NCBI GenBank assembly: GCA_035236585.1
Contig: CP141127.1
Span: forward strand, 67,561,495 to 67,625,494
Length of the DNA: 64,000 bases
DNA from: Warburgia ugandensis
Lineage: Eukaryota > Streptophyta > Magnoliopsida > Canellales > Canellaceae
Direction: 5' to 3'
Below, piece by piece: positions 7,813-22,332 of the stretch (its first letter is position 1; each line of letters begins with the position of its first letter). The position numbers were made by a program, and so were the translations under genes. Under the pieces are notes generated by a model. That model was given only the letters and a program-made list of their open reading frames with translations. It made no database searches and had not been told where the DNA came from.

Positions 7813-8687
7813 TGTGACGACCCAGGTTTTCCCATGCATTTTTAAATGCAATATCTAATTCCTAAGGCGGGATGCATCCCTATTTGAAAACCATTTTATA
7901 AAAACCATGCAATGCAGTGGAAAATCTTTAGTTTTAAACTCATTTTGAAAACCCCGAGTGTCATTTGCTTTCACAACAACCAAAGTAGTTTTTGAAAACC
8001 TTCAGAAATCATAAATGTTTTCCCAGGTCTATCTAGTCACAGCTCACATTTCAATCAGTAAATAAATACAAATACATGTCCAAAGGGTAGAGTGTTTACT
8101 TACATGTATAATTGTCTCCTTTTGATTTTTCTTGCTCATAGCACTAACATTTCCTGAGGCGTCTTCTACTCGTGAATGAAGCTGTCTTGAAAAATGTTAA
8201 GGATTGGGTGAGTATACACTATACTCAGTAGGAGTCTATCACTACTAGTTTTACAATGCATGCTATGTTTAAAATTATATGCTCTTTAAAACATGTGCAT
8301 GTTCAAACACTCATGTTCAATATCGATATTAAAAACCATTGTCGAATCAGAATACTGACGACTTAAAGAATCGCATAATCCAAGTCAAAAGTATCATATA
8401 TATCACAAACATAATTATATGCATAAGGTGCTCAACTGAATCCAACTCATGGATATATGGTATGGTCGACCAACCTCATGTCATGCCATATGCAATGCAA
8501 GTAAATCCTCAAAACATAGGGCCCACTATACCCATGACCTCCTCGCCGTGTGGTCCCCAGGTACCTAGGGACACAGGGTCATAGCCTCCACGAGGCATAT
8601 GACACTTCGACCTAGTGCCGTGACACCAGTGGTAGCCCCCTGTACCACATGCAGTCGAAGCAGGGACATGCCTTTTTGGCGTGGTAC

Positions 8688-11295
8688 TATGACGACCCGA
8701 GTTTTTATATGATGCAATTTTGATAAAAAGGCGAGATCTCTTGTTTTATAAGTATGAGACACATGAAAATCTTTTTCTTTTGGAAAACAATCTTTCATAA
8801 AAACCCGGAGTGTCAAAACACATTCTCAATTTATTTAGCCATGGCAAAGTTTAAATCAATATTATTCCCACGAAAGTGTTAGTCACAGCCCCAGCTATTA
8901 GAGAGCAACTACAATCAAGTAACATTGAAAGATAAGATAGGGGTTTACTTACTTACACTTTGTCTGGGTGTCTTCCTAGCACGAACGTTCCTTGTACTTA
9001 AGTATTTACTTGGTGTCTAAAAAATGTTGAGGATTGGGTGAGTATATACTGTACTCAGTAGGAGCCTATCACTACTAGTTTTATAAGGCATGAGATATTT
9101 TAAAATCATATGCTCATTCAAAACATGTGTATGTTTGAATACTTGAGTTCAATATCAGTATAAGAATCCATGATCAAACCGAAATACTAATGACTTAAAA
9201 GATCGCATAATCCAAAATTGAAAGTATCATATACATATATATGATAACATCATGATATGCAATAAATGCTTCATGGAGTCCAACTCATAGATCTCTAGTA
9301 TGGTATGGTCGACCAACCTCATATCATGCTATATGAAATGCCCATATATCAATGAAACCATAGGGTCTCACTATGCCCACGACCTCACCGCCATGTGGTC
9401 CCCGGGTACCTAGGGACACAGGATCATATACCTCCACGGGGCATATGACACTTCGACCCAGTGTCGTGACACCAGTGGTAGCCCCCTGTACCACATGCAG
9501 TCGAAGCAGGGACATGCCCCTTTTTGGGCGTGGTACCCATCCACCTAATAGTGGTAGGGTTGGGTGGCCAACCCACACCTCTCGGCATAGCACCCACGAG
9601 CTTACTAGCCCAAATCATGTACGATCAAAAACCTTTGTTCAAAACCAGTCCTCTTTGGGTCCCTCACAACTGCCTGGCCCTCAGCACTCCAGCGTCTTTT
9701 GGCAACCCTCAAGGACATGCAATCTTTGCAAGTACTTAAATCATGCAATGTATGCACTTGTTTACAAAACATATATGTGCACAATGTATATGCAATCTTT
9801 TACGAAACATGTCTATGTGCAAAACGTTTATCATATGCATGCTGAATCAAGTCATGCTAAATAAGTCATATACTTATAACATATGTTCTCAAAACAATAA
9901 TAGATCTTTTAAAAGAATCTAATAGTGATAGAGCACCTACCTGGCTAGGTCGCGCGAACCCTTTTGTCCTCGGACGCTCCTGATCATGGTTTGGAGAATC
10001 AAGGTTTGTTTGGCCTATCTTTCATGGGTTTTAGAGTAATTGATCTTATTACTTAGGAATTAGGGGTCCATCCCTATGCCTATGGGTGTCCTAAGGTCCT
10101 AATTGTGCCTTGGTATCCTCAGTTTTCCAACGTTCTAGTGGCCACGCGCCACCATCCTATTCTAAGGGTCATGACCACCTTTGATTGGCCTTGATTAGGG
10201 ATTTTATAGTTTGTATGTATCCGCGTCATCGACACAGACACAACACCTTTTGCGGCACCTCAATCGGAGCTCTAGATCTCAAGTTATAAGCATTTTAGTG
10301 TCATATGTACATAGAGTCTTAAAGATAAAAAGTCGGAATGCTAGGGCGCTGCGCGTCTGCTACGTGCGCCCCAGCTTCCTTAAGGAACCAAAAGACGACG
10401 CGCTGCTAGCGCTCTATGTGTGCGCCTCAGCGAGAACGTCTGCAGACATGCAGAACTTTTCCACCTTTTCTCTCTTTTGCAGGCGTGTCCCTAGACGCGC
10501 CCGTTTGGTTTTTCAAACAAAGGTCGACGCAGGTCGACGTGGGAAGTTTCTATTGGATCGTCCTGCTCGTTAGGGACCTGAGTCGTCCTCGGGTCACCCT
10601 GGTTTGACCCTGTCGAACCAGTGCAGCCCTGGGGACGTCTCAAGGTCCTTGGTGGCTCCCTAGAGGCCTATTCCCCATGGATTTTCATGCAAAAACCTAG
10701 GGAAACTGAGCTTAGGACTATGGGTGAGATGGGTTTGGGGAGTTTTTGGGCGTACCTGCTTCGTGGCTGGTTTTCTCTCCACTTTTTCTCCTCTAGGTTA
10801 CTGCTCCACGATGGGTTTTTCCCAACATTTTGGGCTGCCATTAGAGGCACCCAAGAGCTCTATTTATAGAGCTAAGAGAGGGTTCTGGAGGGGGCTCTCA
10901 CCGCCTTTGAATGGCGGTGGAGAAACCTCTAGAATGGCGGTGATTTCTCCTCCAATCACCGCCGTTCTAGAACCCTCTAGAGGTTGAAGATGAAGGGGTG
11001 CCCGTATCAAAACGGGCCCCTGTGATTTGCAGGTTAAACCGTTTTTTTTACAATTTACAATTTTGCCCCTGAACTTCAAAGGCCCATATCTTGCTCATTT
11101 TAACTCCATTTTGGGTGATTTTGGTCTCGTTGGATTCCTTTTTCTGAGACGCATCTAATGGAACCATTTTTAGGACTAAATTCCTGGGTTCAGTCAAGGT
11201 GAATAGTGAAATGACCAAAATGTCCTTTTCTTTAAAAATTGAACTTTTCATTGCTAAACTTGGAATTTCAATATTACAAAATTGGAGTCATTACA
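8688..11295 (-). mobile_element. Solo LTR (related chromovirus-like family) nested in G1's LTR
   Basis: Starts TATGACGACCCGAG (a TG-to-TA change at the first dinucleotide) and ends GGAGTCATTACA. Target duplications are GGTAC and GCTAC. It is a diverged relative of the host LTR: it shares the GACACCAGTGGTAGCCCCC block, the TTTTTGG(G)CGTGGTACC block and the TATA palindrome. It has an extra CpG-rich segment at about 10,330-10,560. No internal region or second LTR is present, so it is most simply the product of LTR-LTR recombination. Confidence 0.9.
10860..10868 (-). promoter_or_regulatory. TATA box of nested solo LTR
   Basis: TATAAATAG on the minus strand inside AGCTCTATTTATAGAGCT, at the position homologous to 3901-3909. 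Confidence 0.6.
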
Positions 11296-12454
11296 GCTAC
11301 CCTTTCCACCTAATAGTGGTAGAGGCTAGGAGGCCACCCCAGACCTCTCAGCATAGTACCCACGAGCTTACTAGCCCAAATCATATATGATCAATCAAGC
11401 AAAAACCTCTTTTTCAAAACCTGTCCTCTTTGGGTCCCTCAAAACTGCCTACCCAGTGTCTTTTGGGTACTCCAGTGTCTTTTGGTAACCCTCAAGGACA
11501 TGCAATTTTTCAAAACTCAATAATCACAACTCATGCAATATATGCAATTGTTTGCAAAACATATATATGCATAATGTATTTGTCATATGCATGTTGAATT
11601 CATTTATAAAATTAAGTCATGCTAAACAAGTCATATAACTTATACTTAAAACATGCATTCAAAACAATCATGGGCTCCTTTTAAAAGTCTAGTAGCGATA
11701 GAGCACCTACATCAAAACATCATGGGTTCTTTTAAAAAGTCTAGTAGAGATAAAGCACTTACCTGGTTTGATCACGCTAGTCCCCTTGTCCTCGTACACT
11801 CCTGAACATGGTTTAGGAAAAAAGGTTAGTTTGGCCTATTTTTCCTCACTACTTAGGCATTAGGGGTTCATTCCCATGCCTATGGGTCTCCTAAAGTCCT
11901 AACTGGGCCTTAGTATCGTTAAGTTTACAAAGGTTTAGTGGCCCCGCGCCACTATTATAGTTTAAGGGTCATGCCCACATTAGATAGGGCCTTGATCAGG
12001 TATTTTATAGTTTATGTGTGTCCGCATCGTCGATACGGACACAACGCCTTTCGCGGCGCCTCAATCGGAGTCCTAGAACTCAAGTTATGGGCATTTTAGT
12101 ATTTAGAATACATGGAAGGCCCACAGGGGCGCGTCCACAGACGCACCAGGCCTTCTACCCATTTTCCCGTTTGTGGGCACGTCAACGGACGTGCCTGGTT
12201 CAACCTTGTCAAACCACTACGCCCTAAGCACTATCCCTGGGTCCTTTGTGGCTCCCTAGAGCCCCGTTTTTCATGGTTTTTCATGCAAAAACTTGGGGGA
12301 ACTCATCCTAAGACTAAGGGGGAGATGGGTTTGGAGGGGTTTTGGGCACACCTGGTTCGTGGCCGGGTTTTTCTCATGTTTTCTCCTCTTGTTTGCTTCT
12401 CCACGATGGGTTTTTCCCAGGCTTTTGGGCTGCCATTGGAGGCGCCCAAGAGCT

Positions 12455-20866: not shown

Positions 20867-20961
20867 AGAGAGAGAGAGAGAGAGAGAGAGAGAGAGAGAG
20901 AGAGAGAGAGAGAGAGAGAGAGAGAGAGAGAGAGAGAGAGAGAGAGAGAGAGAGAGAGAGA
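20867..20961. repeat. (GA)n microsatellite in solo LTR
   Basis: About 47 uninterrupted GA units. Confidence 0.98.
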
Positions 20962-22332
20962 ACCAGACCCGAAGGCCTATAACTTCTTCATCCGAACTTT
21001 GTTTTCAATGTTCTTTGGCTCGTTGGATTCCATTTTTTGTGTAATATCTAATGGTTTTAGTTTTATTCCAAATTATACTTCTATAAAAAAGATATACTCA
21101 AAAACTCATAACTTGCTCATGAAATAGTAAAATTTTAGGGTGAAATTCATCCGAACTCTGATTTCAGTGTTTTTTGTGTCGTTGGACTCAATTTTTTGAG
21201 TACGTTCCAAATATTCATTTTTCCACTTCAAATTTATTTTTTTTGGGTCAAAAATTCCAATTTCACATAATAACTCCCAAAATAGTATTTACAAAATTTG
21301 GGGTTGTTACATATCCAATGCCAAAAAGTGGAAAATTTTCCACTAGTAGTAAAGATCGCAATAGGTGATTCATGGCACCCTTTTGAGACAATCTTTAGGC
21401 CTTGTGCAAATGCAATCATAGTCCTTTTAAGATACTAACAGGCACATGTTGCAGCAAAGCTAACATGACCATAATGAGTCTCATGGATTTCTGCTATGAG
21501 TTCCTAGGGAGATGGATATGTTGTTTCAAGATAGAGTTTGAGATGGCTACTAGATGAGTAATCATGACCAATTGGCAGATGTACTTGTCAAGGTGTCAAG
21601 GTACACAAGATATTTATCAGCTAGAGCACCAATATTGTGGTTTTACCAAGTGATTACTTTAGAAATTTGATAACCTTAATTTACTTTACTTATCAAATGT
21701 GATTATCTGATTATATAAATTGATAATATAGAATACATGTGAACACTTATAAATGCACAGCATGGAACGTCTAAGGAAAGAAAATCGTGTAATTCTTTTG
21801 AACTAAAAAAAGTGTTTTCATAGCATGTGTGCTGGTAGCCCTGGTTTTGGGTTTATTGTCTAGGTTTATCTACTAGGTATGGTGTATACCTATAACAAAA
21901 ATGCATGTCATTACAGAACTCCTAAGAGCAAGGAATATAGGACATTGCCCAGACCTTAGGAGACAAAGTAAGGGGCTACCTTAATTAGAAATTTTCTTCT
22001 ATTTTCAATTGATTATGCATGTAATTAGGCACGAGATGCCTAACTTTGTTTACATTGATTATTACACTAGCAATGTGTTTGATGAGTGATTCATCTTGGG
22101 AAAATACATTTTTGAGCTTCTGAAAGAACTTAAAGGGCTTAAATGTGGGCCAGTTTATGAAAATAACAAGTATTTTGGAAACAAAAGCACTCAAGGTTTT
22201 TAGAAAATTGTTTTTCAAGCAACTTTATTTTCTGATGTTATATTTTTAGATGTGATTTTAAAAATATGGATTGATCCTGCCTTTGAAAATTAAGTTTTTG
22301 AGAAAATCATGATTTAAAAACCTGAGTCACAA

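Follow-up and report, generated by a model that had tools for sequence, protein, structure and literature searches.

Two solo LTRs nested at probably homologous positions of related long terminal repeats in Warburgia ugandensis

In a stretch of 64,000 nucleotides from Warburgia ugandensis (hereafter the window), two solo long terminal repeats (LTRs), I1 and I2, lie inside the LTRs of two other elements, G1 and G2, and both insertions fall at a GGTAYC motif. Is this motif a special target for integration, or does the coincidence have a more ordinary source? This study finds it likely that the two are ordinary nested insertions, made where an integrase with weak base preferences would meet thousands of near-identical LTRs, and that the interiors of the inserted elements were lost later.

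G1 is an LTR element on the minus strand whose LTRs span 1875-4331 and 7813-12884; it is bordered by its own target duplication, CTACA at 1870-1874 and CTACA at 12885-12889. Its 3' LTR (1875-4331, minus strand) holds an empty copy of the motif at 2743. I1 (8688-11295, minus strand) divides the second LTR into a piece from the 3' side of the LTR (7813-8687, minus strand), immediately outside which a PBS-like sequence is found at about 7798-7812, and a piece from the 5' side (11296-12884, minus strand). The first piece ends in GGTAC (8683-8687) and the second begins with GCTAC (11296-11300), a 5-bp duplication with one mismatch. I1 is a solo LTR of a G1-related family, shares 72-82% identity with G1-family LTRs in the longer aligned blocks, and also contains an empty copy of the motif, at 9532. 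It aligns along the G1-family LTRs without an interior; the one gap in the alignment, some 300 bp long and close to its centre, also occurs as a subfamily difference. Its start reads TATGAC instead of the usual TGTGAC (TA, not TG). A copy related to I1 elsewhere in the genome (L005) has a PBS-like sequence adjoining it.

G2 is an LTR element on the plus strand, with LTRs at 15543-22331 and from 30400 to about 34150, where the right end is uncertain. Its left LTR is interrupted by I2 (17650-21311, minus strand): the first part (15543-17649, plus strand) ends in TATCT (17645-17649), and the second (21312-22331, plus strand) begins with TATCC (21312-21316), again a 5-bp duplication with one mismatch. 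A PBS-like sequence follows from 22332. The right LTR (plus strand) is directly preceded by a PPT-like sequence and has an empty motif copy at 33145. I2, which has an empty motif copy at 18943, belongs to a more distant family, yet its two ends and its motif region match the G1 profile in the order they hold within an LTR, suggesting that it too lacks an interior. I1 and I2 therefore each consist of a single LTR with TG...CA-type ends and a target duplication, with no interior. The claim of the sequence-only reading that I1 splits a G1 LTR and I2 a G2 LTR is borne out by these ends and duplications. Its TATCC for the I2 duplication describes the right copy correctly, whereas the left copy reads TATCT.

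Paired LTRs together with PBS-like and PPT-like sequences, as expected of Ty3/gypsy elements, were found in G1 and G2, and their PBS presumably resembles the initiator-tRNA-Met type. By eye, a frame of 79 amino acids in G2 (24008-24247) resembles a piece of reverse transcriptase; it found no match in Pfam, and against PDB it matched reverse transcriptase/RNase H weakly (E 0.9). Over the aligned pieces, the similarity between the two LTRs is about 93-94% in G1 and about 66-76% in G2, indicating that G2 is much older than G1.

Two further solo LTRs in the window carry empty copies of the motif. One, C, belongs to the G1 family (37700-40190, minus strand; duplication AATAG/AATAT; motif at 38572), and the other, H, lies at 53581-55922 (plus strand; duplication TGAAT/TGAAT; motif at 54810). 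All six empty copies listed in the earlier reading are present. C splits the right copy of an inverted repeat (34352-35190 versus 37224-37701 and 40198-40584), the left copy of which (34352-35190) is uninterrupted sequence. The window also contains direct repeats at 42251-45058 and 50098-52891, with 81% identity over 2.9 kb and a spacing of 7.8 kb, which may be the LTRs of a further element; two tandem copies of about 161 bp each at 56303-56633 (98% identical); and an open frame of 190 amino acids on the minus strand (61199-61771), a candidate for part of a plant SWI3-like protein as judged by eye. A search of the window at Rfam gathering scores found nothing, so no described RNA family accounts for the block around the motif.

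Whether the two insertion sites correspond depends on the relationship between the G1 and G2 LTRs. A blastn comparison of G1 LTRs with G2 LTRs gave no match at E<0.01. A profile built from G2 LTRs matched the motif region in three of four G1-family LTR copies (E 1.4e-4, 2.6e-3 and 5.2e-3), the three being relatives and not independent of one another; the fourth copy, I1, gave no match to this profile over the motif region. These matches are collinear, in order and orientation, with matches to the LTR 3' end in the same three copies. Scored against the whole window they are weaker (E 0.008, 0.021 and 0.086), and in the reverse comparison the G1 profile reached the motif region of one G2 LTR only, with a non-significant E of 0.72. 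As a control, 240 G1-family LTRs were dinucleotide-shuffled: a single shuffled sequence attained the weakest of the motif scores, and not one attained the best. The G2 profile finds H at E 1.2e-24, and the G1 profile finds it at E 2.4e-23 near its end and at 0.0099 in the motif region; since it matches both, H bridges the two families. In an alignment of eight copies with G1 reverse-complemented, the duplications of I1 and I2 are in register or 1 bp apart. The earlier statement that the sites align to within about a base was thus upheld, by way of weak, shuffle-controlled profile matches, and on this alignment the two sites are probably homologous.

For two random insertions on a 2,450-bp LTR, the probability of landing no more than 1 bp apart is about 0.002. 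This figure is post hoc, because many other coincidences were possible and this one was singled out. Insertion might indeed be uniform along the LTR, with the coincidence a by-product of reading many features: given thousands of targets, pairs at the same base would be common, and if 100 uniform nested insertions are placed on one 2,450-bp alignment, it is almost certain that some two of them lie no more than 1 bp apart. Pure chance of this kind is nonetheless a very improbable account, as the junctions described below are over-dispersed at the level of single bases (p about 0.001; 0.002 for 19 junctions).

The 17-mer next to the motif occurs, without mismatch, 7,701 times in the genome of 1.12 Gb (14 contigs). 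The genome was scanned for LTR right ends (TTACA) lying 0-30 bases before a 17-mer, an interval of 31 positions, and a junction was taken as real where LTR-end sequence is joined directly to LTR sequence. Most junctions were read on the right side only; I1, I2, L055 and the L030 insert were read on both sides. The motif interval yielded eight rows at six loci, with five real junctions (L030, L031, that of the window, L034 and L035); the sixth locus, L036, was dropped as it reads as a mutation. Three control intervals in the same LTR family gave three real junctions at five loci, five at seven, and at least four at 13. The first of these had two loci removed (L058, unclear; L061, continuous LTR), as did the second (L063 and L067, both continuous LTR). 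In the third, the four loci that were read are all real, two more are junction-like by their letters, and the remaining seven are unclear or one to two letters off LTR sequence. A further control interval, beside TAGATCTCAAGTTATAA, was discarded, with 49 of its 51 rows at one offset, which look like an LTR variant. A scan for the other LTR end (TGACA) at one control returned zero.

These counts compare intervals across the genome; per-copy rates were compared through sampled loci, the genome-wide count being that of the motif 17-mer alone. Of 20 loci sampled by means of the motif 17-mer, 15, 14 and 13 contain the respective control 17-mers; of 27 loci picked by a different part of the LTR, 24, 22 and 20 contain them and 15 contain the motif 17-mer. 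Since these frequencies are similar, the copy numbers of motif and controls look comparable. The motif interval thus holds no more junctions than comparable stretches (5 versus 3, 5 and at least 4). Because the controls have similar junction numbers, the proposal that GGTAYC is a special LTR target was rejected at the 31-bp scale. Nested insertions are also found at a distance from the motif. The 20 loci chosen by the motif 17-mer include one clear nested insertion (L055), which is far from the motif and has the duplication ATTTT on both sides. In a set of 27 I1-family copies chosen regardless of the motif (L002-L028), four border on a related LTR. The junction of L004 falls at the motif of an I2-type LTR, and the other three junctions are away from the motif.

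At the scale of single bases, the motif may stand out somewhat more. Of the five junctions in its interval, four lie at the motif itself in a span of 5 bp, which has p 0.046 if placement is uniform. When the event in the window itself is left out, the 5-bp core has three junctions against about 0.5 expected (p 0.015-0.018). In all, seven insertions have been located at the motif, distributed over three LTR types: I1 of the window, L030, L031 and L034 in LTRs of the G1/I1 type, L004 and L069 in I2-type LTRs, and I2 of the window in a G2-type LTR. A search for left junctions that was confined to the motif gave two matches, one being L069 and the other the left end of the insert at L030 (L030/L070), which has the duplication GTGGT/ATGGT. 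The suggestion that relatives target the motif therefore holds insofar as LTRs of different families have inserted there elsewhere in the genome; it does not hold in the sense of setting the motif apart from the controls.

The enrichment in the core and the seven insertions in three LTR kinds could indicate that integration is truly concentrated at the conserved block around GGTAYC, a hot spot marked for example by the edge of a positioned nucleosome or by a putative bound protein that guides the integration complexes of several related families. Such a hot spot is unlikely, as the number of junctions over 31 positions is no higher than in the controls, a single control base has received four insertions, and the searches that yielded L069 looked at the motif only. 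The control base is |CTATC, where four insertions (L071-L074; contigs C3, C3, C4 and C5) lie at one identical position. The LTR ends found there are I1-type in L071 and L072, G1-type in L073 and of another type in L074. L071 and L072 differ at 11 of 95 insert positions and 11 of 107 target positions. The four insertions are apparently independent, a view that for L071 and L072 draws on this divergence alone. The site, AGT[CTATC]ACT in LTRs of the G1/I1 type, with at least three kinds of LTR end, is a stronger coincidence than the I1/I2 pair. In a second control interval, L057 and L060 are both at |GGTAT. With 17 junctions in 124 positions placed uniformly, four or more at one base would be expected with a probability of about 0.001 (0.002 for 19 junctions). 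Certain bases thus seem to receive insertions repeatedly, and GGTAC is not the strongest among these.

The recurrence at GGTAYC and CTATC could also mean that the long LTRs of related families hold a few base-level hot spots that several families hit repeatedly. This is a doubtful reading; if it were true, these elements would show a preference for interrupting each other's LTRs at fixed sites. The likely reading remains ordinary nested insertion. Here, an integrase with a weak base-level preference, the presumed cause of the recurrence, would meet thousands of near-identical LTRs; nested insertions would land all along the LTR, with some positions of the shared sequence recurring, and the nested elements would then become solo LTRs as recombination between their LTRs removed the interiors. 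I1 and I2 would lie at homologous bases because the LTR families number in the thousands, insertions occur all along the LTR, and base preference is weak. GGTAYC would be one of several positions that are at most mildly favoured, rather than a unique target, and a mild, few-fold preference at its core is possible. The clustering of motif junctions in the core and the presence of L004 at the motif of an I2-type LTR are points that count against this reading.

Nesting of this kind has been described in plants. Jedlicka et al. 2019 (PMC6911290) report that nesting of plant LTR retrotransposons is non-random, with weak base preferences at the 5-bp duplications, that LTRs are the least-hit region, and that similar nested pairs differ in site by at least 50 bp. 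Like the cases in that paper, the insertions considered here are LTR elements inside related LTR elements, mostly with 5-bp duplications and a weak sequence preference at the site; unlike them, different families here use identical or nearly identical LTR bases. The Discussion of that paper also cites the site preference of the Tos17 type, a Ty1/copia member, in which palindromic flanks surround the 5-bp duplication. As far as that description goes, the present sites resemble Tos17 in a local sequence preference around the duplication, and the control site AGT[CTATC]ACT has mirror-symmetric flanks; the GGTAC core differs in having no symmetric flank centred on the duplication. Among the papers listed by one literature search, no title concerns this insertion site, and absence from print is not claimed.

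In sum, the case is one more instance of the known nesting of LTR elements, of which recurrence at single bases is the less familiar side. With the copy number of the LTRs known, the coincidence in the window becomes less striking. Abundant LTRs amount to thousands of parallel targets, and nested junctions by themselves could be enough to reveal the base-level integration preferences of plant retrotransposons.
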